Shown: piece after piece, positions 5,301 to 59,480 of the stretch
How the letters are laid out: the number at the start of each line of letters is the position of its first letter
Position numbering within the stretch: the stretch's first letter is position 1
DNA from: Polytrichum commune
Lineage: Eukaryota; Streptophyta; Polytrichopsida; Polytrichales; Polytrichaceae
NCBI GenBank assembly: GCA_950295325.1
Contig: OX485808.1
Span: 21,906,527-21,970,526 of the forward strand
Direction: 5' to 3'
DNA length: 64,000 nucleotides
Notes under the pieces: model-generated
The model's database searches: none
The model's input: the letters and a program-made list of their open reading frames with translations, nothing else
Told to the model about the DNA's origin: nothing
Translations under genes and position numbers: made by a program

Positions 5301-6112
5301 GTCAATCAACTTTTATGACTTTGAATGTTTCTACAACTTTACGTAATTTGTGTGTCATGTGATCTTAATGTCTTAGTGCTTGTAATTTAATTGCTAATCC
5401 CAAAGAGATAGAGAAAAAGTCCATGTAAGATAAGGGACTATAGTGCTCAAGGTGTCCAACATAGACACTTTTACCTTATTTATGATTCAAATATATTTTG
5501 ATTAATTATTCTACATTCAGTATTGAACATTGTAACTTGGAGGACCTATGTGTTCAATTCAGGAATCAACAATCATGTATGTTCGATAACCATAAATAAA
5601 TCATGGGAAGTCCGATTTTCAATCTAATTGTTGTTGATGCTTCATCGTAGATTTGCTAATTTAAATTTTCAATTGAGTCTTCCGGCCACAAACTCAATGG
5701 CAGTCGACACAAAGCAACAACATAATTATGATTCAAAAGATCATGAACTTTGTGGTCCAAGAATCCCGGGTTGTTGTTTTTGTTTTCAAGTTGTTAGATT
5801 TATGAGAAATCAATAGTTTGTCATTTCCCAAGAGTTCTAGGGCCGCATTACCACAAACCAAGAACCATGTCTATGAAAATTGAAGGGAACAACTTACTTA
5901 GCTAAACAAACCCACCTACCACAAGGGTAGCCAGTAAATCCTACCTTTAAAACAAAGGAACTCCTGAGCAAGGTAGGGCCAACGTGCTCAAATTTACGTC
6001 AGTGGAAAGACTCACAAACTCCTTTCTTTTTCTTTTTTTCTTTCTTAAGGACCCTTGAAAATCATTTACATGCGGTACCCTAGGAAACATAATTTCAATG
6101 TTGTAATTGATG
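2359..6112. other. no recognisable gene
   Basis: This is AT-rich sequence with only short open frames that lack recognisable domains, codon-use signal or splice-consistent extension. A short local duplication containing GTTGGGAA and TCTCCAA blocks occurs around 4496-4530 and 4625-4660. I see no transposon termini. Confidence 0.6.
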
Positions 6113-6182
6113 GGCCCTCAAGCTTAGTGTAGAGTGAAAGTGGACCATAACATATGTGTGGGTTCAAATCCCCATCATGGCA
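6113..6182 (+). mobile_element. possible tRNA-derived SINE head
   Basis: An A-box-like AGCTTAGTGTAGAG is followed about 35 bp later by a perfect B-box-like GGTTCAAATCC, the spacing of an internal Pol III promoter. The sequence begins GGGCCCTCAAGCTTAGTG, and a partial second copy (GGGCCCTCAATCTCTAG) lies near 6449. No tail or target duplication is evident. It does not fold into a convincing full tRNA. Confidence 0.35.
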
Positions 6183-7064
6183 ATATATTATTTCTAGAAG
6201 TGAATGATAATTTCATTGATTGCCACGGTCTCTAACTTGGCGTTACACCCACCTCTTTTTTATAGACTTGATGCAACATATGATAGATCACAAAACATTA
6301 TCCACTTGGTGCCATGTAAGATGCCATATAAATTTTTATATATTAAAAAACAATCGCCCCTTAAGCCTTCAAAATCTAGTGTAACTTTAGTGAACTTGGA
6401 GTGTCTTTGGCTTCTCGACCAATCACATAATTTGTATATCATCGGTCAAGGGCCCTCAATCTCTAGTATAAAGTGGCCCTAACTTACCCACATTTGAACA
6501 AGCGGTATGTGAGTCAAGTATGACCCAAATATAGAGCAATTGGCCCCGAACTTGATAAAGGGCTTAAAGGGGACTCCAAGGCATGATCCTCCACAAAGTG
6601 ACTTAGCACCTCAAGACAAAAGAAGGCGAGGCCGGAAGAACTTCTCAAGACACATTCATTCTACATATAAGAAACCGGATAGTAGAAGTAATCTCTACCT
6701 CACATTCAATACGACAATTAATACACACAAATGGTTAGCCTCAAAATCAGGCCAAGGGTATGTAGATGTTGGGCTTTTTAGCAGGGACCCACCCATCCTA
6801 GGTAAGATTAAAACGTTAAAAACGCAGTCAACTATGATATTATAACATATGCATTTATCTCTAGTTCTAAAAGAGACTCCAAATTGTATTATTTTATTAG
6901 TGTGGGAATATGTATAGTAGTGTGACGTACAGTACCATCGGCAACTTTATAAGTGTGGCCCACAATATAAACTATCATGCAAGGAAATAGTGCACAATTG
7001 TAATTACACATGAACCTTCAACCATTCACTATGTTCTCAATGCTCATTTCTAGAGGTGGACTAA
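6183..7064. other. no recognisable gene
   Basis: Apart from the partial repeat near 6449 I see nothing supported. The open frame at 6540-6845 is rich in basic and polar residues but shows no domain. Confidence 0.5.
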
Positions 7065-13559: not shown

Positions 13560-15400
13560 TATCAAATCCAACAACTACACTCTCTTCAGTGCCACCCCAC
13601 AAACCACATATGAAGTCTGTAACAAAAAGCATTCAAGCAAAAACTCACAACACTCTCGACCATACTGCTCAACAACATCACACCCAAAACTTAGTTGCTC
13701 TCTTATCACAAATACCAAATCCTACCACAATAATCTCACCTCCAACCACACGTTACCTCTACCCCTAGAATCCAAACACTCGTCACTCCTAACCTTAGAA
13801 CGCAACAACATTCTTGCTCACGACCAAGAACAACCAACTCACCAAGACCTCACACATAGGTTACCAAAAAGAAACCACAACATAGGTTTGCATGTTGAGA
13901 TAAACAAAGCATTGGATCGAAGAACACATGCCTAGGATACGCCGCAAATAAACCTCGCATCTCGGCAAGAAGTTCCTCCTACCTATAGATTGCGCTTCAC
14001 CTACACACATGCCAACCCATGACCAAGACGAACATACACACCACTACTTTCACCTATGTAAACACACATCCCCCCAACGGCCATTCTAAAAAATGCAACT
14101 AACCTAGTTTGCTAACGACACCACAATCAACTCCCAACACAATCCCCCACAAACTTGCAATCCACCAGCAAGCAACATCACCAATGGCCACACTCACCCA
14201 TTACACTATTGCCCATAAACACAAACCTACCTACATTCCTCCTTAGCAAGCCATCAAACAACCATACACACCACAAACAAACAACCATCATGTCGTGTGA
14301 ATAGCGATCGTGTGTCACTGCAGCTCGAGTAACAACCACCACTAACAAACAACACTAACACATAGCCAAGTCACACATAAACAACATACCTCGACAGAGA
14401 AGGAAGAGAGTCAAACCCTTGTAAGAGCTCTAAATCTCTCTTCAAGTGCACACGATGAGTAAAGTTTTCTCTCACTCCACCACGGGAGAGTCCAAGAGTG
14501 TAAGTAAGGGGAGAAGAATTCAAAATTTATTGCAAAAACATGCAATCTTCACCTCACACAAGCTCTCTTTCACACGCTCACTCACAAGGCTTGACTTGGC
14601 AAGAATGCCAAGCCAAAGAGGAGGCTCCTCACTTAGGAGCCTCCCTCTCCACATCTACGATTCATCCATCCAGATCTAAATGAATAAAACCCAACAGATA
14701 AGGTGCAGCCGCCGACACTGTATACCGTGACAACCTTACACCCTTGATCGGACAATCATCCGAACACCAAATAGGAAATCACATACTTGTCACCAACCAT
14801 GCCACCCCCAATGGTCAAAGAGCCACACCTCCATACAAGCAACAAAAACATCATCTCATCCTGTAGCTACCTCTCCTCCACCTCCAACATCAACCCACAC
14901 TTCCCATTCATAGTAACAAACTACCATCACATTAAACACACAACACCTTCATTCAACACACCTCTCCTTCACCTAGAGTCAACTCCAACGTAATCACCCA
15001 CAATGTCCTCACCACACAAGCTACGAATTTAGGTAGCAAATCCCAACATCCCAATGGCTACTTAGGTTAGGTGATCTCATGCAGAGTTGACAATCTCACA
15101 CACACACACACACACACAAAAGTAGCAATTTAGTATTCACACATAGGTGTTGCATCAAGATCACAAAAACAACGTCTTCACCCACCACATACATAAGGAG
15201 CTACCAAATATACCAACACGGCCACCACTTACCACCTAATTGAGAAGTAGAAGTCCACTCCAACCAACACCCACAATGCACTCATACAAACCATACACAT
15301 CAAGCCCAACTGCAAGACAACACATCATATTGCAACCCAATCTACAACAACACGGTCTCATGTCACACCAAGGCATCCTATCTAGCCAATATCGAGAGAT
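13560..15400. other. A+C-rich, G-poor tract of about 1.8 kb
   Basis: The plus strand is conspicuously poor in G and rich in CAAC, ACCAC and CACA words over the whole interval, with a (CA)n run at 15097-15118. A perfect 10 bp hairpin, GGAGGCTCCT with a CACTT loop, lies at 14620-14644. No long frame is open on either strand, so I cannot call a gene. Strong strand asymmetry is common in LTR-retrotransposon non-coding regions, but no ends are visible. Confidence 0.5.
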
Positions 15401-15949: not shown

Positions 15950-17045
15950 GAACTTACCATCATTAGAACTTGTTGAGATGAACAAAATAGATTAACGGCC
16001 TCGCGATTAACAATTGGAAAATCATCCGAATCTTCATGATTGATGTCTTTGCCAATAGGTAAAGGGGATAGCCTAATCAAAGGCTTTAAGATGGAATCCA
16101 AAAACATCTTTGTGGCCTTCCAATTAATGCCCAGAGGTGATGCAAAGTGCGGCAAACATGTATGGAGGGTCCTATCAAAGACATATATTAAAACACATTT
16201 ATGAAGAGAACAATCAATGACACATGGTAGTTGATATTGCAAGCATATGAAGAAAAAAAATATCAAAGACAAAAAAAAAAAATTTATACATGTCGATGCG
16301 GTGAGGTCTGCAACAATGCCCTCGGGTTTTGAAAAAACATTGATCAAAACTTGAAAGAATAATGGATGCTTTTCTCGTGGACCCCTTCAAGGTGTAATAC
16401 CGCGATCTCTCATAAGTTGAGAAGTAGCATCCGTAAAGTTATATAAAACATCATATTCCAATTTCATATAATTGTCTGAAAGATCTTTGTCAATATTCAT
16501 TTGAAAATGCAAAGACATACGTTTCTATCTAAAAGTATTATAAAAAGAATGAAGAAGCAAGAGTGTTGTAAATTTGATTGTTTGCAAAAGCAATGAAAAT
16601 CAAAGAAAATAAGAAACCAATCATAATATAATGTAACAAATCAAAATTACTTTTGAAACTGAAAGAAAACGTGACAGAAAGAATTGGAAAATGAATTGTT
16701 TTGTTGGAATTGCGGGGATTGGCCAAACGAAGTGGATTCACGCAAATCCAAGGTTCATGGCCAACCTTGAAATTATAATTTAAGAAATAAGAAGACAATT
16801 TTTTTGTCCGTTTCGCATCATTAGGATAAAAATACCAATGAAGTACCATTGTCATGAAGATATAGCATGCAAAATGAAAACAAAGCAAGAAAAAAATTAT
16901 TTGATTTTGCATTTCAAAGGGGTATAGAAGAAGCATGTATTGAAAATCCAGGCACACGAAGCCCTTATGGGAAATCTGCAATATCCAAATGAATAACCGA
17001 TGGTGTTATTTGAACTCCTTGAAAGTAGAAAATGCGATTTGTACC
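15950..17045 (-). pseudogene. decayed beta-class DNA amino-methyltransferase-like gene
   Basis: Minus-strand segments in order resemble the beta arrangement of N4/N6 amino-methyltransferases (catalytic motif IV before the AdoMet motif I). First comes FYFQGVQITPSVIHLDIADF and then KGFVCLDFQYMLLLY near 16920-17035, where LDFQY could be a degenerate DPPY. Next is VGHEPWICVNPLRLANPRN near 16700-16765. Then comes DRGITP, a stop where Trp is expected, KHPLFFQVLINVFSKPEGIV and ADLTAST near 16290-16420, the likely motif I. A phase-compatible intron (16289 to 16172) follows, and then SIHVCRTLH and, after a frameshift, LGINWKATKMFLDSILKPL. The first codon after the intron reads TGA where motif I would need Gly. 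Several stops and a frameshift make it non-functional. The family call is inference from motif order and spacing. Confidence 0.5.
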
Positions 17046-17556
17046 AATCTAAGCAACAAAAATATTGGGGCTCTTTGCAACTCCAAAGATGGGACTAGAA
17101 AACATGGCACCCCTGCTCCTACATAAAAGGGATTAAAGAAGGAGTATCACTCCACCAACAATGTGGAGTACGAGTTTTGGTTTTGCCCTGATGACATCAA
17201 ACGTTGTGTAAATGGTTGCATTAAAATTTGAAAAAATTAAAAATTAAAAATTAAAAAATTAAAACGTGTTGGATTGGCCTATAGTACCCAACACATGGCC
17301 GGTGAAAATAGATACCAATTCCTTAAAGCATGAGGTATTAGCACTCGAAGACGTTGGGTTCCAATTGCATCAGAGGGAGGTTCTCTCTCCTCGCCGCAGG
17401 CTTTCCACAATCACCACACATCCAATCCCTTGAATGGGTTTATGTGCTCCTCTAAACCCAGATGTCCACCCAACTTCCAGGTATGGGAAGACGATGCGCC
17501 GTAATCTAGCAACATCGATAGTAAAACAATAAAACAAATGGGAGAGTGCTAGGCTC

Positions 17557-18005
17557 ATGGACGGTTATTATGTGGTTGGAGTAACTGTCATTCCATATCC
17601 TCGATTTAGAGTGTTAATCAACATTATCTCCAAGGAGGATACTGCATACCGTGTCACAATTGGTGATATACTGCAATGCACATGCCTTGACTTCACAAAA
17701 ATGTCAGCTCAATCTTTGGGAAGAAAAGGAAAATGGGTGTATTGCAAAGAAAAGAAAAGAAAAAGTAACGCTAGTATATGATACCAGCGTGAATGCGAGC
17801 CCGTTAGCCATGCACTGATCACGGTATTCATTGATGCAGTGTATGGTTTTATGCCTCCTGTGGTGTATTGCAAATATCTTAATTATGTGTGTAGATCTTT
17901 ATGCAAGGTGGATTACAATAGTGACAAGTTTATGCACGCTCCAATGTACTCTTATAATGAGGTCATGAGGCTACTTGAACTTGCAAGTATGATAGATTGT
18001 GAGTA
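17557..18005 (+). pseudogene. SWIM-type zinc-finger protein fragment, split by LINE insertion
   Basis: The frame from 17557 reads through YYVVGVTVIPYPRF to GDILQCTCLDFTKM and KGKWVYCK, then is interrupted at 17749. After the insertion, frame is regained with VYCKYLNYVCRSLCKVD and DKFMHAPMYSYNEVMRLLEL, ending in a stop at about 18005. The C-x-C followed by C-K-H/Y pattern is the SWIM finger (C-x-C-xn-C-x-H); here the His is Tyr, so even without the insertion the finger is degenerate. The paralogue at 44862-45329 (minus) keeps C-S-C and C-K-H. SWIM domains bind DNA or protein and occur in MULE-type transposases. Confidence 0.65.
17749..17861 (-). mobile_element. 113 bp LINE 3'-end insertion, 13 bp target duplication
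   Basis: GGTGTATTGCAAA occurs at 17736-17748 and 17862-17874, flanking 113 bp. On the minus strand the insert ends in TTTTTCTTTTCTTTTC, and its ~95 bp body matches the 3' end of the insertion at 7075-7384 (shared blocks ATGCAGT, GATCACGG, GAGCCCGTTA, TATGCCTCCT on the plus strand). It disrupts the SWIM frame, so it postdates that gene. Confidence 0.85.
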
Positions 18006-34152: not shown

Positions 34153-35555
34153 CTATTCTACATCATCAATGAAAATTTGAGCTATGGAAGCCTTTGTCTT
34201 TGCCATCCAAAGACTCTTTGCTATGCTATTTCGTCTTGCGGACAACTCTTTGAATGACTTTCCGGTAGTGCTCATTGAAATTTCGAATGCCAAAGCGTCT
34301 TCTTGCTTTAGGTATTCTAGCGTTTCTCGTGATTGGTCGTCAATCCCGGCCAAATTATGCAAAGCCTCGTTCGCCACAGCCATTCGCTCGCTCCTGGATG
34401 AACCCGGTACGTTTGGGATGGCCAATCCGTTGTGCACCTCATCGGTGACCTCCCGCATTCATTCTTCTTTCCAAAAGGTGTCACCAAAAATTATGCACAT
34501 GTTGTGCAAAACCAAGCACGTTGTCACCAAGTCGGGTACGTTCTTCAAATGCACATCTATTCTCTTCAAAAGGATTCGCCATCTACCTTTCAGCATTCCA
34601 AACGCTCGTTCGACGCACATGCGTGTTGAACTTTGGACAAAGTTCCAATGATATTCTTCTCGCGAAAGCCTGTCTTTGTGCCCCTTAAAAGGTGCCAACA
34701 TCCAAGGACGACACGGATAAGCTGCATCACCAACCAAAGTATAGGGCCAAAGTTTGCCTGCCTCACAGTACTGACCTATAGCAGTCCTACCCCAAAGGTT
34801 CGCATCATGCATCGAACCCGCCCAGCCTATGTCGAAATCCCAAAACAAACATTTGGCCGACACAATGCCTTGCAAAAGGACTGAATGAAATCCCTTGCGG
34901 TTGTAGTAATCTGGAGCATGTAGTCGAGGTCCAATGATGGGAATGTGAAAGCCATCCATTGCCCCCACCACGTAGGGAATCTGGTGCAAGTCTTGGAACT
35001 CTTATGCATATCTTTCCATAACGGAAGAAGAGGGCCAATTGATGAATTTCCTTAGCAAATTTTTTTTATGGCACTACAAAATTGGGAGACTGCTAGTTGA
35101 CTAGAAGAAAGCCCAATTTTGTACAAATCGGCAATGCACGACATGGAATTACCTGTGGCCAATCTAGAAATTGCTACAGCCACCTTTACCTGGACTGGAA
35201 TGGCCAAACGCAACCTCGTGTCTTGTCGGTGCAAGTCGGGTGCGAGAGTTGTACACAAGTACTCAAAAGTTGAAACGTCCATTCGCATGCGGCCTTTGAA
35301 CTCCCTCGCATTGAAGGAGCCCAAAAGATTTTGATCGAAAAATCCTGGTTTGTGCAACCCTCGATCATGAGCCCACAAACGTTGTTGTTGTCTCCCACTC
35401 CACGACTTCAACCCATGCATCGCAAGTGTCAACCCTATTTGTTGAGCGTGCCACAGTAAAACTTTCTCTTTCTCTCTGGATATGGACTCCATGGTGGCGA
35501 ACAAAGTGAGTTGTAAGACTAGCAAAATAAGGAGCTTATGGACATCGGGGTCCAT
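34153..35555 (-). pseudogene. PIF/Harbinger DDE transposase, decayed
   Basis: From the ATG at 35555 the frame runs through a charged N-terminus and a helix-turn-helix-like region (MDVSTFEYLCTTLAP; IADLYKIGLSSSQLAVSQF). A one-base loss in an A8 run near 35060-35067 then breaks the frame. The DDE_4-type core follows in another frame: YVVGAMDGFHIPI (first Asp), DYYNRKGFHSVLLQ, GWAGSMHDANLWG, LVGDAAYPCRPWMLAPFKG (second Asp), RMCVERAFGMLKGRWRIL (Glu) and LHNMCI. Two in-frame stops also occur: TAA near 35004, where Gln is usual, and TGA at 34459-34461, where Trp is usual; the remaining 101 codons run to 34153. About 468 residues if whole, normal for the family. All three catalytic residues survive but the frame does not. 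Confidence 0.95.
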
Positions 35556-36119
35556 TTTTTCAACAGCCCTAGTTCTAAATCTCTGGGTGCAGCTGGGAGC
35601 AGAGAAGAGAAAGAATTTTTTTTTCGAGCCCTGCTGTTGAAGAGGCCCCTGGAATCAGACCCGGCTGCAGAGAGCAGGCAGTGTGAGGAAGGTTCCCGGC
35701 AGCTGCGTTTGGGCAGACTGCCGGTCCCGGTAGTGGGGTCCCCTCCGCCCTCGTGGCACACCACTAAGGCCCTCCTAGGCCTGTTAAGCCTAGCCACAAG
35801 CCTCACACTGCCTATCGGCAGTGTGGTAGCAGCCTAAAACCTACTTGAAAATCTCCATAGCAAGTTCTTGTAGGCGCATTGGGATAGCCAGATGCCTCCG
35901 CTATAACCAAGGGAGCTTTACCTGGTTTTTAGGAAATACTTTGGTTATCAGGTAGGAAGGGGGCAATAGGCCAATAGCAGACATAATCATCTGCTCCCGA
36001 TGTTTGCCGTTGGAGCAAGGCCCACTCATAAGAAAATGACCCCGGCCTGGATATTAGAGAGGGGAAGGTAGTGGACCGGCCAGTGGTAGTCCACTATGAG
36101 CCCAAAATGGTTGCTCATA

Positions 36120-39832: not shown

Positions 39833-42800
39833 ATGGCAATGCCTCCTGAATCTGGTTCTGGAAAACGTCCCTCCTTCAAGCAGAGGGTGTTGATGATCAC
39901 CCCTGGGGGAGAATTATCAACTGCCGCAATGCAAGAGGTTGTCCAGATCTCTTCAACCGCGTCTGCAACCATTTTTTCTCCCACCCCACTGCATGTACCT
40001 GCTCCATTTGAGGCTAATGCATTGGACATCAGTGGTTCTCCATTCACTGTCGATGCGCCTTCAAGTGGTGGTAGCAACAACTTAGATGGCTTCCATGAGC
40101 AATCAGACACCCAATTGCTACCAACCTCACATGAACCTCCAACAAAGAAGCGAAAAATTCCAAAAAGAAGGTACCTCCTAAACCCTAAACCATGGCTATA
40201 TTTTTTGGGGAGTAATGCATTGGCTAAGATTATTCTAAAATGTCGTCTCAATTTCCGATTTCTAAGCATGTGTCGTTTCAATTTCTAACATGTCAATTGA
40301 TGTGTGATATTTTCTCTTTCTCAAGTTTTTTTCTTTCTCAAGTTTTGACGTGTACCCATTCTTGAGGGCCTCAGCATAGGAAGTGGCCCCTGAACCCATA
40401 ATGTTTGGGGAGACACGTGCGTGGCGGGTTTGGGTCGGGTATAACCCCCCCCCCCCCCCCCCCCCGGGTCTAGAGGAGGTGGAGCGGGCTCTTCCGGTAG
40501 ATGTCACGTTTAGGCCTTCTGGTAGAGGCCACATGTAGGCCCTTCCGGTAGAGGCCAAGAATAAGTTTCACAAGTTTTCACAAGAAAAAAAGTGGCCTCA
40601 ACCGGTAGGGCCTAATCATTTTTGTCTTGTGAAAACTTTTTATTCTTGGCTTATACTCGAAGGGCCTACATGTGGCCTCTACCAGAAGGCCTAAACGTGA
40701 CATCTACCAGAACAGCCCGCTCCACCTCCTCTAGACCGGGGGGGGGGGGGGGGGGGGGGTTTATACCCGACCCAAACCCGCCACGCACGTGTCTCCCCAA
40801 ACATTATGGGTTTAGGGGCCACTTCCTATGGGGATTTTTTTTGGCATTTTGAGGATATGTTTTTGATGATGTCTTGTTTCTCACTGGTTTAGGGTGGTTT
40901 TGGTGCAGATTTCAAGAAAATTGGGCAGCAAAATACCCATGGTCTCAACAGGACCCTGAAGGGGATGGTACATTTGACAAAGTTCGATGTATCATCTGCT
41001 CTAAAGTAAATGGCAGAGACAAAATACTGGATGCAAAAGATGACAACCTGAAAAAACACCAAGGATGGAAGAGAGCACTTAGCGACTTACCTTCTTTGAA
41101 GGTGAAGAAAGGTGAATGGTATTGGGACCAGAACTCTGTCCACAAGCGTGCTGAGAGGACATTTGCAGCACTGCCTGTTAATGATATTGGAGCCCTAGTT
41201 ACAGCTGGGGCTCCTCCAAAACGCAAGGAAGTGCAAATGGCAGTCATCTTTCACTTGTTACAATTTGGAAGACCTATGACAAAATATCCACCCATGAAGG
41301 AGCTGTTACAATTCCTGGGCGTTCCTAAGGTCAGAATCTTTCATTTCCTTTCAGTTTCAGTTGCTCATGTTATTAATTTTGTTTTGAAACATCGTGTTGG
41401 TTAGTAATGGCACTTGAGTGTATGTGCAGGTTCCATTGAAGCATTGGACCGAGGGGTCGGGTTGGGAAATGGCTGAGAGTTTGTTTAACGTTGTGCAAAC
41501 AAGGACAAAAGAAGTAGTAAGTACAACCCCTTACTTCTCTATCACTTGCGATGAAGTCACAACGTTGGACAACCAATCTTGGATTAGCATGCATGTTTAC
41601 ACAATTCAAGATTGGGAAAGAGTGCCAATGTTGTTGTGCTTGCAACGTGTGACTGAGGGTGGTGGTGCCGATAATATAACCAAGATGATTCTTGGTGCAC
41701 TCACTAATGAAGGTGGGTTAACCCCACATCAGATTAGAGACCGATTCATGGCATTTGGGACAGATGGTGCATCGGTTTTGCAAGGGAAAAGAAATGGTGT
41801 CACTAACAAGCTGCAGATTTCTCATGCGCCACACATGCAAGGCATGCATTGTGTGGCACATCGAAGCAACCTTGCAGTGCAATGTCTATCAGATCTGGAG
41901 ATGGTGGCTAGGATTGAAACCCTACTGGCTGCTTTGCACAAATATTTTAGTAAGTCCCCAAAACGTCATTTGGAGCTCCAAAAACTTGCTGAATTGCTTG
42001 AGTCTAAGGGCAGAAAAATTCTTCAAAATATAAAAACGAGGTGGATTTCAATGTTGAGTCCATTGAAACGTGTTTTGTCGGAGTACCGTACCCTTTTGGT
42101 GAAGATGTACTCTGATCATCTTGTAAAACCAACAATCCCGACAGCCAAGGTAAATTATGAACTCATGGCTGATATCAAGTCCTTACTGACCTTGGCTGCA
42201 GTGCTACCTCTTCTAGAGGCTGTGAAAGCCTTGGTTGTCTTTGCACAATCCCCCGGTGTATATGTGTGTGATTTCACAAGGGCATTGAGCCTTTGTATCT
42301 CAGATGTGAATGACTTGTATTGTACAAACAATGCATTCATTTCAGATGCATTTTCATGCTTCAAAAAGATATGTGATTTTTCGCATGAGAGCATCCGCCT
42401 AAGGTGGCATCCAGATGTTAATGATTGTGTTGAGCACTTGGTTTTTGAGGCCCATTTGTCAACTTCAGCCGGTTCCCACCTCAATGCGACTTGCGTTGAT
42501 CATGTCACACACTTGAGGAATTTTGTGACAAGAGAATTATTTGATAGAACGATATCGGAGGTGAAGGTCGAGGTTGCAGGTATGTGTTTGTTTTTAGTTT
42601 TGTTTCTTAGTTTATGTTTTTGCATCTTTTGATTATATCAAGGTTTTGCATCCATGAGCATGGATCTAATGTGTTGGTTTTTTATTGCAGATGCTGCAGC
42701 CATGATGGTGATGGAATTGGAAAGTAGGTTCCCCCCTAGTGAGGTAATATATGCACTGTCCATTGTATATCCTCAATTTTGGCTTGAGCCAGGGCATGAG

Positions 42801-43424
42801 GACAAACTCACAGGGTACATGAACACTTTGAAGCAAACATATGCTCACACCAAGGATTTCTCTAGCGCTACAAATGTTTGTGATACATGTCCAACAGTGT
42901 TGAGTGCTATAGCACTTGATCGGCAGTTGCATTGGTTTGCTGTGGCTATGGCGAATAATTCTCCTCATGCAATGAGGGCCATGGACACCCACATTCATCC
43001 CTTAACCAAACTATGGCGTGCCTTGGCACAATCTGCCCCTTTGAAGGGTATGTTTCCCGAGTTCTTTAAGCTCGCAGAAATTGCGATGATCCAGGTACGG
43101 GGTTATATTTTGAAAATATGTTACTTCTTTAAACTTTCTCATGCTTTTTGTATTCATGTTCTTGGATGCAAGTTGGCTTCTTACTGACTTTGTCTCTTTG
43201 CATCCATTTTGTAGGTTCTTGGGAGCGTAGAAGACGAAAGAACATTTTCCAATGTTTCTTTCTTGAAGAACAAACTCCGCAACCGCTTAACTGAACATTT
43301 ACCTCTTGCTACAACAATGTTTGCACAAAAACATTACACATTGACATCATTCCCGTACAAGGATGTCGTTTCAGATTGGAGAGCTTGCAAGCCGAAGCGC
43401 GGCCGATATGCACTTGGTGTTTGA
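39833..43424 (+). CDS. hAT superfamily transposase-type protein, intact, five exons
   Basis: Exons 39833-40170, 40909-41329, 41430-42579, 42691-43094 and 43215-43424 have GT-AG introns with phases 2, 0, 1 and 0 that all agree, giving 2523 coding bases (840 residues) with no stop. Residues ~100-113 are a basic nuclear signal (TKKRKIPKRR). A BED-like finger follows (C140-x2-C143, H163; the second His is unclear). The catalytic core shows FSITCDEVTTLDNQSW (Asp294), AFGTDGAS (Asp365), GMHCVAHRSNLAVQ and KTRWISML (Trp458). The C-terminal dimerisation domain has VLGSVEDERTFSNVSFLKNK (Glu779-Arg780). It would bind element ends and cut DNA in the nucleus. No inverted ends or 8 bp duplication were found around it, so it is either an autonomous element with eroded ends or a co-opted gene. 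Intron 1 carries a large foldback and a telobox-like AAACCCTAAACC at its start. Confidence 0.9.
40375..40830. repeat. long foldback (two ~205 bp arms) in hAT intron 1
   Basis: The left arm (40375-40588) starts CATAGGAAGTGGCCCC and the right arm (40621-40830) ends with its complement. The arms agree at roughly 95% over their length, including a C22 run paired with a G22 run and GGTAGAGGCCACATGTAGGC. The loop is only ~32 bp and holds GTGGCCTCAACCGGTAGGGC, another degenerate copy of the arm motif. The foldback lies wholly within the intron in neither splice site, so it would be transcribed with the pre-mRNA. A MITE or foldback element is likely; no clear target duplication is seen. Confidence 0.93.
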
Positions 43425-44861: not shown

Positions 44862-45329
44862 CTATCCCGATGTACTTATGCATGCTCCACCACACACAAC
44901 AAGCTCAAGCAGACACATGACCTCATTGTCATTGAAAGTTGGGGCGTGAATGAACTTATCCGTGGTTTCATCAACCTTGCAAAGAAATCTAAACACATAG
45001 TACAAATGCTTGCACAAAACCCATTGACCCCTCTTCCTTGCTGCCAAAGAGGACATTCTTGTGAAGTTTGAGCAACTGCACTGTGGAATAGCAACTATGG
45101 ACACAAGGTATTGTTTTTCATCCTTGGAGGCAATCATTATAATGGCTCCGTATCCAAGATACGAAATAGTAGTTACTCCAACCACAAAATACCCTCTCCC
45201 ATTTAATCTCGTGCTTTGGTGTAGGTGCAAATGGATTGTGTCGCATTGTATTTGAAAACATGTTGTTAGGTGCACTTCCAGATTTGAAGGCACATGAAAA
45301 CGCGCCTGCGGGATGGGGAGGTTTGGCAT
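44862..45329 (-). pseudogene. SWIM zinc-finger C-terminal segment
   Basis: Minus-strand residues include GYFVVGVTTISYLGYGA, then VAIPQCSCSNFTRMSS, RGQWVLCKHLYYVFRFLCKV and DKFIHAPTFNDNEVMCLLEL. C-S-C plus C-K-H fits the SWIM consensus C-x-C-xn-C-x-H, so this copy retains all four ligands, unlike that at 17557. It is a fragment: no start, and the N-terminal part appears displaced to 47.6-49.0 kb by repeat E. It ends close to the GTGAGCAGTGAG array. It likely belongs to a MULE-like or other SWIM-bearing transposase; no DDE core is visible. Confidence 0.6.
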
Positions 45330-45479
45330 AGTACCCTATCAACGGCGGGGAGACAATGCCTCATGTTGTTGTAACTAGAACGTTATGTCCTCCAATGCAA
45401 AGACCTCCTCTCGAGAAAGGTTGGTGCCAACGTTCACTAGCCATGTGTGTGAGCCCAAAAGGGTGCCCACATTTAGTCT

Positions 45480-47660
45480 TAGACCCTTGAAACGTTAGTT
45501 GATGCACTTTGAAGTAGCATGTTACTTCACAAAAATATAAAAAGAGTGAAATGTTAGTCTTAGAAGTACCATGTTGTAAGAGGCTAGGATGTGAGTTGTT
45601 ATTGTGTTTTTACCTTCGGAAGGATTTGAATGAATGAGGATAGGTAAGGAGAACTTGGATTGAGTAGTTAGTGAGTAGGCTAGTACAAATGGATGGAGAC
45701 AACCAAAGTGACTCAAGAGGCAAGTGCATTCGAATTGGGATGAATGGAGGATCACATGAAGCGCACAAGTGGACCACCTCATCATGGCCACTTAATGGGG
45801 AAGGCCCAAGGAAGAATGCAAGGTGGAGGATAAGCAAATTCTCAAAGCACCAATCAAATCACGAGTTAAGCATCGTGGTTTGAATTAAGTGGTGAGCGAC
45901 GATTTGGGAAAGTAAGGGGAGAAAGTTATGGCGGCGGAAAGCGAAGGAGGCTAAGTTTGGGTTGAAGCATCCCAAGTTTGGTAAAGTGTGGTAGGTAGAA
46001 AGCCAAGGCTAGTTAAATGTTCGAATTAGGATCCTTGTTGATCATTTGAGGGAGGAAGGCTTAGAAGATAGGATTGGCGCCTACTAAGTAGGAGGAAATC
46101 TCAAGGGCTTATCGTGAGCCTTGAGGGTGCTCACCCCCTCAAGCTTACTATATAATCCCTCATTCTTCCCTCACTCATCCTCTCTTTCCTTTGTGCTCCA
46201 AGGCACCCCACGAGTTATAAGTGTGGGTGTGGGAAGCCATATTGAAGCACATGTGTGTGCTTAGTTTTTAGTTTGAGAGCCAAGGCTTGTTAGCCTTGAA
46301 GAGGGCTTGACCTCTTGGTAGAATTAGTGTTGACGTGAAGGATTTTAAAGTTAATTCATGATTCCAATTTGTGGTACTTAAAGTTCATGTTTTGAATACA
46401 CGTGGTTGCAAGTTCCATGTTTAAGAGTTGAGCACTTGATGTTGTGATGAGTGCAAAAATATACTTGTGTGGATTAGTTAGTCTTAGTGAAGTTAGGAAA
46501 TTCTCTCTCCCCCTCTCCTCTCTAGGATTTTAGGATTTTAGGATTAGAGAAGAATTGTGTGATTAGAAAGGGGTTGTTAGTAGAATTAGGGAAATTAGGT
46601 AGGAAGATTAGTTAAGGGCTTGAATAATTAGTGAGGTAGTTGGGGATTACAACTACAAAGTTGTGGGTTTATGAAGGAGCTGGGTTTGTTTAGTTAGAAA
46701 GTAAAGAGCTGGGTTTATGAAGGAGCTGGGTTTGTTTAGTTAGAAAGTAAAGAGCTGGGTTTATGAAGGACCTGGGTTTGTTTAGTTAGAAGCTAAGGAG
46801 CTGGGTTCATGAAGGAGCTGGGTTTGTTTAGTTAGAAGCTAAGAAGCTGGGTTTATGAAGGAGCTGGGTTTATGAAGGAGCTAGGTTTATGCAATTAGAA
46901 AGTAAAGAGATGGGTTCATGAAGGAGCTTAGTAGATAGCCTACCTAATTAGCTCATAGACAAGTAGTTAGTTACATTATGCTAGTTAGTGTTATGGTGGC
47001 TTTCACAAGTAAATGTATTTGAGATTGACTATAGAGAATAGTGTTTTTTTTAATACTTGCATCCTCTCTTTAAAAATAAACCACGTGCACAAATTAATGG
47101 AGAATGTGGAGCACTCTCGCGATGGCAAGACAAAGGAAGCAAAGACCAAAGGTGCGAGGGAGAGATTGACATAAGTCACATAAGTATTTCTTAATACTTA
47201 AAGGCTTATGTACGGTATGGAGACACCAAGTGAGACCTCTTATAGTAGCGATACGGAATACACAAGTGATAGTTCAAGTGGTAGTATAGAGTCAACGGCA
47301 CGGACTCCATTTAGGAGAGGGATATCCTTAAGGGCTTGTGTAGCTAAAGCGGCCGGATGGACGTTAGAAGCAAACAAAGACAAAATAGCACCCGAGCATA
47401 AGGAGGTTAAAATAACATAGTTAACTTGTGCATTCTCCACATACGTATTGAAATTGTACATTGAGTTGTTAAAAGTGAAATTCCAGTTAAATCCAAGACC
47501 ACTTGAAGGGTGAACCTTGCACTATGGACTCATCCAAGTCCAAATCCAATACCGCGGAGGAATGTGAGCCCAAACCCACTACTCGGACTACGGACGCTTA
47601 AGGGTGGGGGGTTTGGCCTCACAATGTGGACAGAATGTTGGGCCAATCAAGCACCTATTT
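45480..47660 (+). repeat. LTR-like repeat E, copy 2
   Basis: It parallels 36120-37440 in block order (CTACTAAGTAGGAGG, CTCTCCCCCTCTCC, minisatellite, GTTTTTTTTAATACTTG, GGACGCTTAAGGGTGGG). After the LTR-like part a 70-codon frame at 47208-47420, rich in Ser/Thr/Glu (SSDTEYTSDSSSGSIEST), might be a gag start, but it is too short to classify. It lies between two parts of a decayed minus-strand SWIM/zinc-finger gene. Confidence 0.5.
46670..46930 (+). repeat. ~46 bp minisatellite
   Basis: Five to six units of GAGCTGGGTTTATGAAGGAG and CTGGGTTTGTTTAGTTAGAA. It occupies the position of the different 36 bp array in repeat E copy 1. Confidence 0.9.
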
Positions 47661-49000
47661 CTTCTTGCTTCCCTTCATGCATTGATTCATGTCTTCATCG
47701 CAAAACCAAAAGTTGCGCAGAATGTGGTTGTTGGACCAAAATTCCTTTCTTCATTCTAGTGTAAGTTGGTGCAAGAGTGCCAAGGATGTCCTTACTAAAT
47801 TTGCCCTTGCATGGATGTCTTGTGATTGCTTGCAAAGCTTGACACTATTTCTTGGACAAATAAGGCAATCAAGCAATATGCCATTGTGATTTTGGGCATT
47901 CCAACTCCAAGACACGTGTAATGTGAACCATTCCATTATATGTAGTTTGCAACGACTCTTCAATTTGGGTCCTCTTGGATCTTGTGTTCGATCGAGGGAT
48001 TGAGTAGTATAGTTTGTATGGGCAAGGAGATTTGTATTTGGACCCATAGGGCAAGTCCAATTTTTGTTGTTGTTGATTCAAACAATTTATATCCCTCAAA
48101 TGCGCAATCTTTTGTGTTCATTTCTTGTGCTCCAACATATGACTTCATTGCTTTGGCAAAAAGCTTAGGGTTTTGGTGTATGTTGCAACCTTCAACTTCA
48201 AGTTGGCTTGGTCAAGGCCCTTACTAGATACACCACCCTTAATTCAACTGTGGTAATTGGCGATTTGCATGAAGGCCTGGACCATGTCATTCAACGATGG
48301 CCTTGTAAAGACGTGTCATCATGTTTCCGGATTGTTGTAGCCATTTGGAATGCAATGTTTCCGCAAGATTGCAAGAGGGCATCTGAACGCGATCTTCCAA
48401 AGTCATATCCTTCTTGGAAACAAAAAAATACAAACCTTCAATATCATGAGCAATGAGATGAGTATCGACTATGGTGTAGAAGCAATTGTGGTGGATGAGT
48501 AAAAGGGAGATTTACTATGAGCATTTGTCCACCCCATTGGGCATAATACGATCGGGAGACTCCAAAGTAGAAAGCTTATCCATGACCACCTCTAATGAGC
48601 TCCTGCGCAAGTGGTCCTTCGCTCTCGCAACAAATGTTTTTAGCAATTAATCCGCTTCAAATTATTTGCTCGTTGCCATAACAATTTTTAATTTTTCTTT
48701 TAATTTTTTTGCATTGGATGTTTTGCTCATTCTTTTGTAATGCATTGATCAGCCATGTCGATGGATTCATGACATATCCCTTGAGAAACTGGGTGTTTAT
48801 GAACTCCTAGATGTATACATGCATATGACATGCCAAGTGTTGTGGAATGTACATAAGTGATTTTGGCCCCACATACTTTTATGCAAGCATGGATTGTATG
48901 ACAAACCTTGTAGTGTAGCTTTGATTTCTTTGACGGATCCAAAACCACACAAAATGGAGAGGGGGTGATGCATGTCTATTCATTGTTGTTACAACGCCCT
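47640..49000 (-). pseudogene. decayed zinc-finger protein gene, probable N-terminal part of the SWIM gene
   Basis: Minus-strand reading gives, in order, PSKKSKLHYKVCHTIHACIK then ITYVHSTTLGMSYACIHLGV and HKHPVSQG (48727-48960), a Cys/His pattern ending in H-x-H like FLYWCH/GCM-type fingers. Next is DMTLEDRVQMPSCNLAETLH and KWLQQSGN (about 48330-48440), then QAFMQIAN, and then NGMVHITRVLELECPKSQWH (about 47890-47950), a stop, and a Lys-rich tail. Stops and frame changes are frequent. The order and strand fit a single gene continuing into the SWIM fragment at 44862-45329, split by repeat E. The finger classification is tentative. Confidence 0.4.
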
Positions 49001-50463
49001 CCATTCCTCAACAAGTAGTCGCATTGGTCATTCAAGCACTCCAAATGACCGACATAAGAGGAACATCAAAATGTCAATTCAAACTCATTCTAGATATTAA
49101 TGGTTTTTTGTTGTATACCATGCATGGCCGCCGTATATTTTATCCATGCCATCCATCCCCTTGCCATAATTATTGGGGATCCTAGTGCTCAATGGGGACA
49201 AGATAAAAATAACATCACCATCAAAAGACGGAGTAAGGTACGTCACATCCTTGACATCTATTTTATCAAAGTCAACATATGTTAGCTCATACTTAGGAGC
49301 AGTTCCTACATTTTCTAATTTTCAATGCATCTAGAATTTGGACATCGTTTGTTCAAGGGAAATAATGAATGGGAAGATGAATGGTAGTCACTGACTTTGA
49401 CGCAAAGAGCATGTACATAGGCACGTATGGAGACTTGACATTATCCACAAACACATGGTGAACTACACCGTTGATCCAAAGGTGAAAGGAGACATATTTG
49501 CTAGATCTATTGTTGGCAATGTACTATCATTAGAGTCGTTGAGTGCTATCACGTCTTCAAGCCCTGGTTCAACTTTCACGTGATGAAGAGGGAGATTCAA
49601 TGTGTTGGTGTTTGATTCATTAGTCAACAACATTGTGGATGCATCCATGATAGCCTTAGACATGCCTATTACACTATATGAGCTAGCTAACAATGCCCAA
49701 CGACATCATGTTTCATCTCTGAGTTTTTGGACAAGGACAATTCCACTGACCTCCCCACTGTCTTATAACACTTCTTGTTTGATGTAAAATGTACCGGCAC
49801 AATAATCGAACTTCAAGCATAGCAAACCTCCTTCACCACTATTATCCCATCTTTATTCAAAGGTAAAGTGAAAGACACTGCACATCTAATAACTCAAAGC
49901 GCTACCATGTTGTTAAAGCAAAACCGATGAATGGGTCACCCTGGTATTTGAACTACACACAAAGACTAAGATGAAATGAGGCGAGGGAATTTAGTGGAAT
50001 AAAATACCATCCCTAACTTGTTGGGATCCCCAATATAGTATGTGGGCAATGACACCTATCTAATGTGTAAAGGTAAGACCATAATGTCAAGTGGTATAGC
50101 TCCATAATAATGTCAAATTTTATTTTGTGTCAATTGTGTATATTTTATATTAAAATAATATTATTTACAATTTAGAAGAAAATATCCACAAGGACATCCG
50201 CAACACATTCATACCCTTTCAAACAAGACACCAATTTTCTTGTGCAACAATGGTAGGGGAAGATGCTAGAGGGAGATGCAAGTGCTAGGACAAGTTACGC
50301 AAACCCAAAGTGAAGAGGAGGAAGAAATGTGCCTTTTGATATTCAAGTACATGGTAGTTATGGCGATCTAAAATGAAGTAGACATTACAGAGTGCGACAT
50401 TTTAAACACAACATGTACATTGTTCCAAAATTATGGCAATAAAGGTCTTGGCACCAAGAGGTC
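49001..50463. other. no recognisable gene
   Basis: The minus strand at 49463-49790 is open through HVKVEPGLEDVIALND and may be a further upstream piece of the decayed gene at 47.6-49.0 kb. The rest shows nothing supported. Confidence 0.4.
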
Positions 50464-51955: not shown

Positions 51956-52846
51956 CAGACCTTGGACAACTGCCAAAATAACTAAAGTTAACTAGATTTT
52001 TTTCAAGGCATTTTAGGGAACAACTATAGTTAACTAAAAAAATTTCAAACCCATTTGAAAAACAACTAAAGTTAACTAGAAAAAATCAAGACCAAATTCA
52101 AGAACAACTATAGTTAACTAAATTTTTTTTAACAACTATAACTATGTATCTAACTATAGTTAACTAAAAAAAACTTCAATAAAAACTTTAGTCAATTGTA
52201 GTTATGAAATATAAACATCAAGCCTCATATTCTTCATCTGCCTCAATGTTGTCCTTATCTTCATCGTTGGTGTCGTATTCCGACATAACTGGTCGCTTAG
52301 GAATAAAATTCTCCCATTGCGAGTCAAGCTTGACTACCTCAGATACGTCAGAACAAAGTAAATGCTTGTTCATCTTTAGGAACATGTTGACTTCAATTAA
52401 ACTTGCTCGCAAAGAAGATTGCTTTGGAGCAATGACATCATTCATACCACCAAGATTCACAAGAGTTTGAAGCCTAATCCACAACCACATCGATGACTTG
52501 AGTTAGTTGACACAATAAAGCATAGATACCTTGCTTGCTCCAGATTGTCAAGTGTGCTCTCAAGAGGCTTCAGACCAAAAGGAGGAGAAGCTTCAAGATA
52601 TAATAATTATTTTGAAAACCATTAGCCTTTAGCCCCTCATTCCTCGTCATCCTACCATAATTTCAGGCTGCACTTAATGTTAGTTAACTAGATATAACTA
52701 TAGTTAACTAGATTTTTTGGTAGTTTGAATTCAAAACAACTATAGTTAACTGGATTTTTTGACCGGTCAAATCGTGAACAACTGTAGTTACGAAGGGCAA
52801 CTAGTTAACTACTAGTTGATTTAGTTGGTTAGTTGTCCAAGGTCTG
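51956..52846 (-). mobile_element. hAT transposon remnant, exact 8 bp target duplication
   Basis: The 16 bp perfect inverted ends CAGACCTTGGACAACT are flanked by AAGGGTTG at 51948-51955 and 52847-52854. Both subterminal regions are packed with AACTATAGTTAACTA-type palindromes (about ten in all), probably transposase sites. The 891 bp interior keeps the C-terminal end of a transposase on the minus strand. Confidence 0.96.
52218..52490 (-). pseudogene. hAT transposase C-terminal remnant
   Basis: The minus-strand frame reads RLQTLVNLGGMNDVIAPKQ, then SSLRASLIEVNMFLKMNKHL and an acidic end (SEYDTNDEDKDNIEADEEYE). The S-L-x-x-x-L...K-M-N-K pattern and acidic tail fit the end of an hAT transposase after the dimerisation core. 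The catalytic part is missing. Its placement inside the 51956-52846 element supports the call. Confidence 0.55.
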
Positions 52847-53280: not shown

Positions 53281-54918
53281 GTCTCTACTATAGAGGGGGT
53301 TGCATGATGTTGACGATAGTGTCCGAAAAATGAGAAATTTGCAAAACAAAGGTTTTAATTTAGTAATTTCAAGGTTGAAAATGTTACCTACAAAGGAATT
53401 CCACATATATTTTCCATTATGTTATATGATTCTAATGCTTGCAATGAGATCCATTCTAGAGGTGGATGTGCAATTGTTAGAAAATGAGTTCAAGAATGGG
53501 TAAAGGGACGGTGACAAGGTGTTATATTTGTCATTTGTGGACAAGGATGGTAAGTCACAAGATGTTATTACTGAGATTATTGAAGGGTGGGATTTGCATT
53601 AGCACTATTCAAATGATGCATTTGAATCATTCCTTTCCCTTGATTTGGATCTTATCGCATTGAAAAGTAAGATGCTATATGTATGGGAAAGCAACCATAG
53701 ACTACTAGCTTTCCATTGCCACAACCAAAATTTCCATGTTGATAAGGACTAGCACATATCAATTGATTCTATTTATTTGGACACAACAAGAGTTGTTGGC
53801 ATTCTACTCAATGCACTGCATGACATCAACTGGTAATTGCTATACTCATATTTCTTTGATTTGATATATCGTTTGTACATTTCACCCTTTGATTGATTTC
53901 AATGCCATGTATTATTTTTGTAGGTAAACGGAGAATGACCATATCAAAACAAATGTGGCTCATAAACTGCATCATATATGAAGCTTTGAGATATTGAAAC
54001 TCCAAGGTTTCAAAGATTTGTTGCCTCCTAAGGACTATGACAAGTGTGAGGAAAAAAACAAATACATGGTATCTACTTATCATTGATGTTTAAACTTCTA
54101 TCATTTATAGGGTGAGTTTCTTCATTAAAGGTTTGCAATTTATTAATTGATCCATTCATCTCATTCAATGATGTCCTTCTCTTTGCCATCACTCATATTG
54201 ATTGATTAGTGTGGCATCTTTGCTGCCACCAAATATGCAATTCGAGAGTACAATGAGTTAACACCGCTTGACAAAAGGTCTCCAAAGGGTAGTTGGGATC
54301 GCATGCAAAAAACGGCGAAGAAAACCATAACGATAATACATCCAAAGGAGTTTGATAATATGTTGTGTGTTGCCAATCCAACCAATGGTGACAATTGGCT
54401 GCTTAAATTGATTTGCTTTTATTTCTTCATGTTCATTTTATGTATGTGCATTTTGAAGAGCCGTTATCAAAAGAATTGTTCAATGACATTACAATGTTTG
54501 TTCAAGCATATCAATAAACATTGTAGCCTTTGTGAAACCTGAAATGAGATAAGACAAGCTTCAGAAAGTAGCCACATCAGCGGTTGGTGGGACATGTTGG
54601 CTAAAGTGGTGGAATTCTAGCTCAATATTGCAACAATCCTTGAAGTTTCCCGTGGGTGATGTTATAGAGGTTGAACTAGATACTTGGCTTTCAAGAGCTT
54701 TTTTTTGGGCACACATACATTTTGTTGATATCATAAAATGGTTTGACTTTGTTTCGTTTATTTTTCATCTTTTTCTTTTTTCTTTTTTCTTTTTCTTTTT
54801 CTTTTTTCTTATGTCTTATTCGTTGATTATGAGTTTGGAAGAAGTTGTTACAAAATTTGAGGCTATTGAAGAGAATCTAGGTGAAATTTGCACGGGTAGG
54901 TCACTTAGTGCATTTTAA
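53281..54918 (+). pseudogene. decayed gene with ParB-like N-H-R domain
   Basis: The plus-strand frame from ~53290 to 53833 reads MLPTKEFHIYFP, RDGDKVLYLSFVDKDGKSQD, VITEIIEGWDLH, a stop, FESFLSLDLDLIALKSKMLY, VWESNHRLLAFHCHNQNFHV, a stop, then HISIDSIYLDTTRVVGILLN and ALHDINW before a GT donor. The V-W-x-x-N-H-R-L-x-A motif resembles the GxHR core of ParB/sulfiredoxin-like domains. Later exon-like pieces follow: IKTNVAHKLHHI (about 53945), AATKYAIREYNELTPLDKRS and TITIIHPKEFDNMLCVANPT (54210-54390), SLKFPVGDVIEVELDTWLSR (54640-54700) and SLEEVVTKFEAIEENLGEI (54830-54890). Three in-frame stops, two of them where Trp fits, show decay. In bacteria and phages ParB-like domains are often fused to amino-methyltransferases. 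Confidence 0.45.
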
Positions 54919-58370: not shown

Positions 58371-58654
58371 AATGGTATTATTGTTTGCACCCTTCTTTAT
58401 TTTCATGCTTTCCCTCAACACTCGTCAATTGCGTTAGGAAGTAGATTAGCTTTTATTACTTAAAAGGAATATAGAGTACAAAAAATTGCAGTGACTTGGA
58501 CAATATAAATAATAAAAGGGTGCAAACAAATGGGCCATTTTTGAAATATAAGTAATTATAGGGAGGCTTTAATTCAACCCTTGAAGGTAAATAGCCCCAA
58601 AACAAAAAAAACCCCAGCCGCACGTGGTGCACAAAAATGCCTTAGAGTGACCTA

Positions 58655-58840
58655 CCCGTGGAAATTTGGTGGGAGGATGGGATACTCAAGCCTTCCGAGT
58701 ACAATGAATGTTGGCATATTGGCATGTGGGAGAAGGCATTTAATATACTTATAAAAGGGACAAACTTTTTTACTAAATCTTCCAACCTTTTTGAATTCAT
58801 TGGAAGAGAGGCCACCTTCAAGTGTGTTCTTTATAAGTAG
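58655..58840 (+). pseudogene. unrecognised exon-like fragment between the direct repeats
   Basis: The frame reads VEIWWEDGILKPSEYNECWH, IGMWEKAFNILIKGTNFFTK and SSNLFEFIGREATFKCVLYK and stops. Its composition looks like real protein, but I do not recognise a family. It is the only coding-like piece in the ~1.1 kb between the repeats (58371-59480), which otherwise shows nothing. Confidence 0.3.
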
Positions 58841-59480
58841 TGGTTGGTTGCAAGGTTTTGTTAAATTTTTATTTTATTGAAATAACAACTATTGCACGTG
58901 TTCATTATGTTCTAGCATGTTTTCAATGCCTAGGTATTTGAAGCGGATACTTGTGGCAAGGAAAACAGTTGCAAAAATGCCCTTCCTCCTTTCTTGGCAT
59001 GATGGATTGGCAAGTCCACTGGCATGTGTATAAATACACGAGCATAATTAAAAACTTTGACATTGTGCCTATTGCAATGTTGTTCTTGGTTTATATAGTG
59101 TCCGTTTGATTTTTACTATGTAGAGGAGGAAGAAGAGCAAAAGTCAGTATATGGCATTCTCCCATCCTAAGAACAACATCGCAATGATAATGAATTCATT
59201 TTGGCACTTGACGCTACACAATTAGGTGAGGCTGCACAAAATAACACAAGGAAATGAGGAGCTGAGAATGCTCCTCTTGTGGTCCATGTGGTAGTGGCAA
59301 CACCCAAAAACGTTGGAAAACCCGTATCATTAAACAATACACAATGACCATCCATTCAACAATCTCAACGTTTGGTAAATTGACCTCAAGTGCATCAAGA
59401 TAAGCTTGCGATTTTGTAGTTAGTTGTTTGCTATCACTTAAACACTCAAACAAAAACAACTCAACGAACTAGATCATAAA

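Follow-up and report, generated by a model that had tools for sequence, protein, structure and literature searches.

Large DNA transposons in Polytrichum commune carry a multi-exon gene that joins a ParB-like N-terminal domain to a methyltransferase-like C-terminal domain, and the stretch at 53281-54918 of the window is a dead copy of this gene. The window is the whole stretch of DNA that was analysed (64,000 nucleotides; G000:C6:21906527-21970526), within a genome assembly of 408 Mb with seven large contigs. A MIR166 gene that scores above the Rfam gathering threshold and domains of the LEAFY family in this genome are in keeping with a land-plant host. Our model as a whole is that the stretch is a dead accessory gene of large plant DNA transposons and that the intact protein would bind palindromes of its own element and alter chromatin or transposition; we regard it as evenly poised between right and wrong. 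A first-pass annotation of the same DNA had proposed a decayed ParB-like gene belonging to a ParB–methyltransferase family spread by transposition. That interpretation is partly supported, and it missed the transposase and the structure of the element, as well as the altered catalytic motif and the arrays of palindromes.

Searches of the window with the proteins of intact genomic copies (tblastn) recover the decayed gene where it had been reported, at 53327-54738, with E values for combined HSPs of 2e-43 for the L021 protein and 4e-62 for the L024 protein. The ParB-like exon is 38% identical to the L021 copy and 44% identical to the L024 copy, and is broken by three in-frame stops, ending at 53503, 53602 and 53752. 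Its VWESNHRLLAF corresponds to VWEGNHRLTAW of the intact copies, a motif that varies little or not at all among 11 aligned intact exons. The former splice sites can still be made out, with a donor after ...CATCAACTG at 53832 and an acceptor GTAG at 53920-53923, and exons 3 and 4 fall in a tblastn match at 53898-54401. The gene extends beyond the end given in the first-pass annotation, because exons 6-7 follow exon 5 after about 3.9 kb of other DNA; beyond these, tblastn with the L021 and L024 proteins found no methyltransferase exons. The whole of this first copy spans at least 44.9-59.2 kb (tblastn, Tandem Repeats Finder) and has the layout of the intact elements: a transposase on the minus strand, then tandem repeats in the place at which intact elements have their arrays, then the ParB–methyltransferase gene on the plus strand. 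The observed/expected CpG ratio is 0.31 in the ParB pseudogene of the window versus 0.76-0.77 in intact gene regions, as would be expected if dead copies had long been cytosine-methylated.

Features of the two dead copies, in positions of the window
Feature	Position	Strand	Evidence
Copy 1, decayed transposase	44904..49699	-	tblastn with C7-copy transposase, E 1e-9 to 1e-29
Copy 1, related 42-bp tandem repeats	51980..52790 (51980-52122, 52696-52790)	.	Tandem Repeats Finder
Copy 1, decayed exon 2, ParB-like, with VWESNHRLLAF	53327..53833	+	tblastn, L021 residues 66-235; L024 protein
Copy 1, decayed exon 3, TENDHIKTNVAHKL...	53924..54090	+	tblastn; acceptor read directly
Copy 1, decayed exon 4	54210..54401	+	tblastn
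Copy 1, decayed exon 5	54508..54738	+	tblastn
Copy 1, decayed exons 6-7	58652..59155	+	tblastn E 1e-6 / 1e-7
Copy 2, remnant of methyltransferase exon 10	16113..16175	-	tblastn, joined with exon 9, E 4e-8
Copy 2, decayed methyltransferase exon 9, motif X to motif I region, RGPREKHPLFFQVL...	16291..16506	-	tblastn E 2e-11 (L024), 2e-7 (L021)
Copy 2, decayed methyltransferase exon 8, motif IV region, LDIADFP*GLRVPG	16833..16994	-	tblastn E 1.7e-4 (L024)
Copy 2, decayed transposase C-terminal half, strand opposite to methyltransferase	17109..17979	+	tblastn E 2e-25

The methyltransferase-like pseudogene that had also been noticed at 15.95-17.05 kb is confirmed by tblastn as a member of this gene family. 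It is part of a second dead copy, at 16.1-18.0 kb, which is inverted and internally deleted, so that methyltransferase exons on the minus strand lie beside a transposase C terminus on the plus strand. On these matches, each of the two pseudogenes represents a separate dead element, and both elements come from one family. A search of the window for the family’s TIRs gave no match, both copies being too decayed, truncated or of another subfamily. Elsewhere in the window, nearly open PIF/Harbinger-like transposase frames (34459-35654, minus strand) and long hAT-like transposase frames of 404 and 183-184 amino acids (40853-43187, plus strand) were recognized by eye.

The decayed exon (window 53603-53833) has 912 candidate matches in the genome, of which 150 were scored; all 150 matched, many of them with an open frame of about 190-230 amino acids. 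The pattern is thus no accident: the stretch belongs, as a dead member, to a large family dispersed through the genome. Spread by transposition, as had been suggested, is borne out by hundreds of copies that are the cargo of DNA transposons with TIRs and TSDs. One copy on C3 (L021) has 11 exons with GT-AG introns and no stop, and encodes 1,087 amino acids, with the exon structure read from sequence as predicted splicing. Over 7.6 kb, two further copies (L022 and L023) match it at 99.5% identity, and no stop interrupts the first eight exons of L022 either. In the predicted protein, a short leader and the ParB-like exon (VWEGNHRLTAW) are followed by a middle region of some 500 residues and by a methyltransferase-like part with GLDLLFADIPENLPVP..., then REKHP...DVIMDWQC(G/S)VGGS..AC....RHIVALE. 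Both parts are thus read from ONE gene; with an intact copy assembled, as the first-pass annotation had recommended, this copy neither lacks the ParB-like part nor carries it apart from a methyltransferase. Between L021 and the diverged L024 copy, identity is 56% for the ParB exon and 42% for the methyltransferase part.

Between copies, the ParB exon has a median dN/dS of 0.12 (14 exons and 55 comparable pairs, the pairs not being independent and the exons having been picked for open frames), and values are far below 1 at synonymous distances of up to 1.5. As judged by these ratios, the exon is under strong purifying selection, which argues that the cargo is maintained for its protein. Searches of viral contigs and of bacterial and archaeal genomes returned no relatives of the ParB exon, and so gave no sign of a close donor among prokaryotes or viruses.

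Element ends were set by comparison of pairs of young copies, giving lengths of about 20.9 kb (A2), 16.2 kb (B2), 21.2 kb (D2) and 21.3 kb (E2). The TIRs are 42-43 bp in length, 88-95% identical and built of GCGGAGA-like heptamers, and all 4 full elements are flanked by 10-bp TSDs (CATCCATCCG, AGAAACTCGG, ATCAAAATAG and TATGGGCGTT). When the flanks of A2 are joined over one copy of its TSD (CATCCATCCG), they match 39 other places, nearly all end to end and at up to 98% identity; such places are unoccupied sites within a different repeat family, one copy of which is interrupted by A2. This target repeat (left flank, L031:399-4667, C3:5226989 on) has 221 candidate DNA copies in the genome and a gene of its own with a second ParB/GmrS-like motif, FWIIDGQHSLEASQLIL, whose GmrSD_N match (E 0.068) is below the cut-off.

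In every full element the ParB–methyltransferase gene lies on the strand opposite to a two-exon transposase, and the two genes are kept together in 4/4 full elements and in both remnants in the window. The transposase is open in two frames in B2 and is broken by a 2.1-kb insert in A2. Motifs recognized in it by eye are VYDSTY, MADSAQAN, RTCQFHW (C..H) and CNLAE, and a SWIM finger scores 17.5 bits (E 0.003), under the cut-off of 19.6. The order of the motifs and the SWIM-like finger suggest the Mutator superfamily, and the 10-bp TSD is within the range of 8-11 bp of Mutator-like elements (PMC6446971). PF10551 (MULE) has no match in the transposase and none at family loci in the genome listing, so we call the vehicle ‘Mutator-like’ rather than MULE. 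AlphaFold gave no usable model of the transposase core. Near the left end, elements of both subfamilies also encode a small charged protein of about 155 amino acids (MGDERDMF...; D2 6110-6580, A2 5187-5657) that has no family match. The C7 element contains an SNF2-helicase-like fragment (D2 13605-13901, which is L029:3605-3901, minus strand), possibly captured cargo, within a part in which D2 and the C3 copy E2 agree at 99.6%; no counterpart was noticed in A2, and the piece was dropped as a candidate for a shared element gene.

The identification of the N-terminal domain as ParB holds at the level of the GNHR motif and not at that of Pfam, in which PF02195 (ParB_N) has no match in the family. 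Pfam and PHROGs searches with the L021 protein or the ParB exon gave no useful match either. In the motif G-x-[HR]-R-x-x-A and the strand that follows it, GNHRLTAW is conserved and the alignment is in register but weak; HMM scoring likewise places GNHR on the ParB G.RR helix in the correct register, with tiny scores. A profile comparison of the family with seven plasmid ParB_N segments is marginal, giving a score of 20.2 that is reached by 1 of 400 column shuffles, with a reversed-family control at 18.1. The AlphaFold model of the exon, from 11 close sequences, has a pLDDT of 38. Given the negative ParB_N search, the marginal profile score and this pLDDT, we name the domain only ‘ParB-like’; of the proposed fusion, the methyltransferase half is confirmed, whereas the motif is the basis for the ParB half. 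The assembly itself has four ParB_N hits, all on small bacterial-looking contigs; C10, C12 and C23 (G000), which are small and have clear matches in long open frames, are probably bacterial contamination.

The proposed match to N6_N4_Mtase is real: the L024 copy matches PF01555 above the cut-off (E 4.4e-7, 30.5 bits, cut-off 26.7), although the L021 copy alone has no PF01555 match in Pfam. Among solved structures, a two-sequence profile retrieves DpnA (2e-4) and CcrM (1e-3), a PHROG DNA methyltransferase matches at 2e-10, and searches of phages and plasmids with the methyltransferase returned ordinary methylases (best E 3e-5). The motif order—IV, then X and I—is that of beta-class amino-methyltransferases. 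The SAM-binding motif I (MDWQCGVGGS..AC / LDWKAGTGN..AC) follows a motif X-like REKHP/REKAP, and its glycines are mostly retained.

Motif IV is different. It reads D[ILV]PE instead of (D/N/S)PP(Y/F/W) in two subfamilies that are 42% identical, and DIPENLPVP is conserved across subfamilies, the residues being kept despite differing codons (synonymous turnover). A genome search for A-D-x-P-x-N-L-P-V-P gave 142 matches; among the 100 listed, all have D[ILV]P, the fourth position is E except at a few sites with K, one with A and one with a stop, and none has DPPY/F/W. Compared with the canonical motif, the METHYLTRANSFERASE is odd: its motif IV lacks the catalytic aromatic. In amino-methyltransferases this aromatic is expected for ordinary N6A/N4C catalysis, and its loss makes canonical N6A/N4C methylation less likely; SAM binding or an unusual substrate may be compatible with the altered motif. 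A 16-Mb stretch (G000:C4:41.9-58.2 Mb), about 4% of the genome, holds 23 of the 100 listed DIPENLP-coding sites, a marked concentration, and is perhaps heterochromatin or a non-recombining region.

In the A subfamily, a 7-kb block of tandem repeats lies between the divergent genes. The sequence CTCGGATCCGAG occurs 43, 27 and 47 times in three young A elements, mostly within a perfect palindrome of 20-26 bp; a shuffled A array has 0-5 palindromes of at least 12 bp. Other subfamilies have arrays of other unit lengths at the same place, and several share the core CTCGG-N2-CCGAG: GACCCTCTCGGATCCGAGAGGGTC in L006, L007 and L013 (units of 138-151 bp), AGGCCTCGGATCCGAGGCCT in L008, and CTCGG-CT-CCGAG and CTCGG-TT-CCGAG in L005 and L016 (units of 84-86 bp). 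The sequence common to pairs of arrays mostly extends little beyond the palindrome, but reaches 30 bp for A and L008 and 47 bp for L007 and L013. With 11 arrays combined, palindrome content exceeds that of shuffles (Fisher 5e-7, the arrays of related copies not being fully independent). Taken singly, the arrays of L009, L011, L016, the D subfamily and the window, with its 42-bp units, have palindrome contents that are not significant against shuffles, and the core palindrome was not found in those of L009, L011, the window or the D subfamily (L024, a different array). Across the genome, TCTCGGATCCGAGA occurs at 764 places and the reversed control at 0; one cluster, at C2:21080230-21080528, precedes by 2 kb the ParB exon at C2:21082577, and L006 and L008 have further palindrome sites past the ParB exon. 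A second motif, ACCAGATTT(TG), was seen upstream of the ParB exon in the unlike repeat units of L005, L007, L009, L011 and L016, alongside or in place of the palindrome.

Arrays beside a ParB-like gene resemble both ParB–parS and VANC/VANDAL, which is why we favour binding of the element’s own palindromes. The ParB-like domain, probably as a dimer, would bind these palindromes (GAGGCCTCGGATCCGAGGCCTC as candidate target DNA) and the bound protein would load along the element. Binding of SAM or DNA by the methyltransferase-like domain, or its action on an unusual substrate, would in turn set the chromatin state of the element, with protection from host silencing or control of transposition as the most likely net effect. 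A more specific form of this proposal, which we consider possible but somewhat doubtful, is a eukaryotic ParB–parS-like system that would bind CTCGG-N2-CCGAG arrays, spread, and mark or shield the element through the altered methyltransferase, with protein and sites co-evolving as in VANC/VANDAL.

The palindromes might instead be bound by the transposase or a host factor. In one alternative, the accessory protein would mainly help or regulate transposition, as second genes do in other Mutator elements, with arrays that are transposase-bound or cis-regulatory for the divergent genes. The position of the array between divergently transcribed genes and the constant pairing of accessory gene and transposase in full elements and window remnants fit this explanation, which we hold to be rather unlikely: the A-subfamily sites are central and not subterminal, as is usual for transposase sites, and sites lie beyond the ParB exon in L006 and L008, neither of which identifies the binder. 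The N-terminal domain could also be some other DNA-binding fold, with GNHR a chance motif that is unrelated to ParB. The confinement of the genome’s Pfam ParB_N matches to bacterial-looking contigs points that way, as do the one shuffle in 400 that reaches the profile score and the close reversed control. We think it unlikely, given that in the alignment the motif coincides with the ParB G.[HR]R..A helix and the strand after it, and that algal proteins of the same order, size and setting are annotated as ParB-like in the passages considered here of PMC12477816.

Active self-methylation, in which the protein would bind the transposon and deposit N4-methylcytosine or N6-methyladenine, is a hypothesis stated for the Ectocarpus protein in those passages (PMC12477816). 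It gains from the N6_N4_Mtase match above the cut-off and from the conserved motif I region (DW..GVG / DWKAGTGN with AC....RH.VA.E). However, the loss of DPPY weakens any model of this kind, D[ILV]PE being found in two subfamilies and at nearly all of the 100 listed sites, and we judge the proposal quite improbable. Gene capture is frequent in Mutator-like elements, and the D subfamily also has an SNF2-like fragment; the gene could accordingly be a captured passenger, a functionless fragment as in Pack-MULEs. This reading is already disfavoured, and is in our estimation very improbable, because ParB exons of different copies have a low median dN/dS, the multi-exon frame is intact and DIPENLPVP is conserved across subfamilies.

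How transposons act on host chromatin is rarely known, and this family is an intact and recently active example in which both a protein and its likely DNA sites are available from several diverged subfamilies. Should the ParB-like domain read the palindromes, the family would be a second, unrelated sequence-specific system of anti-silencing or self-marking beside VANC. If our favoured model is true, machinery of a bacterial plasmid type works in a plant nucleus, land plants join algae as hosts of ParB–methyltransferase transposons, and loss of the standard catalytic motif does not prevent retention of the methyltransferase part.

ParB–parS systems have palindromic site arrays near the ParB gene, and their genes, like those of bacterial ParB-methylases, are prokaryotic and intron-less. 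The family resembles the former in its palindrome arrays near the gene, and resembles the bacterial ParB-methylase Bce_0392, in which ParB is joined to an adenine methylase (PMC5512222), in its domain pairing; unlike these prokaryotic systems, it has a ParB-like domain that is missed by the ParB_N profile and a methyltransferase without the canonical motif IV. VANC binds VANDAL repeats and removes silencing in Arabidopsis (PMC5735166, PMC10398659). In both families a Mutator-like element has an accessory gene and motif-bearing, fast-varying noncoding tandem repeats, whereas VANC carries DUF1985, which has no Pfam match in our family, and anti-silencing is shown for VANC and inferred here. The family-specific motif repeats are, by this comparison, a likeness of working to VANDAL/VANC and not membership. 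Other transposable elements likewise have DNA-modification genes of their own, although of other enzyme classes and in other elements: KDZ transposons have TET/JBP genes (Iyer 2014, as cited in PMC12477816) and retrotransposons have DNMT genes (de Mendoza 2018, PMC5890265).

The first-pass annotation did not recognize the family as described, but transposon-borne ParB-methyltransferases are already published from algae, and this cargo is a known kind. In the passages considered of Dinatale et al. 2025 (PMC12477816), the 21.5-kb Sola1 element Sola1-1_Ec32 of Ectocarpus encodes a 1,104-amino-acid ParB-like/methyltransferase protein on the strand opposite to its transposase. Compared by description and not by sequence, it shares with the elements reported here its two domains, its protein length (1,104 versus 1,087 amino acids), its size (21.5 versus 16-21 kb) and the orientation of the gene. 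It differs in its host, a brown alga rather than a land plant, and in its Sola1 transposase, which contrasts with a Mutator-like one with a 10-bp TSD; those passages mention neither palindrome arrays nor the state of motif IV. Transposon ParB-methyltransferases of green and red algae (refs 50, 51 of PMC12477816), compared here through that citing paper, have the same domain pairing and transposon setting. No report of such transposons in land plants was found in the literature searched, which misses most subscription journals. As far as can be told, the land-plant host, the Mutator-like vehicle, the D[ILV]PE motif, the palindrome (parS-like) arrays and the evidence of selection appear to be new.
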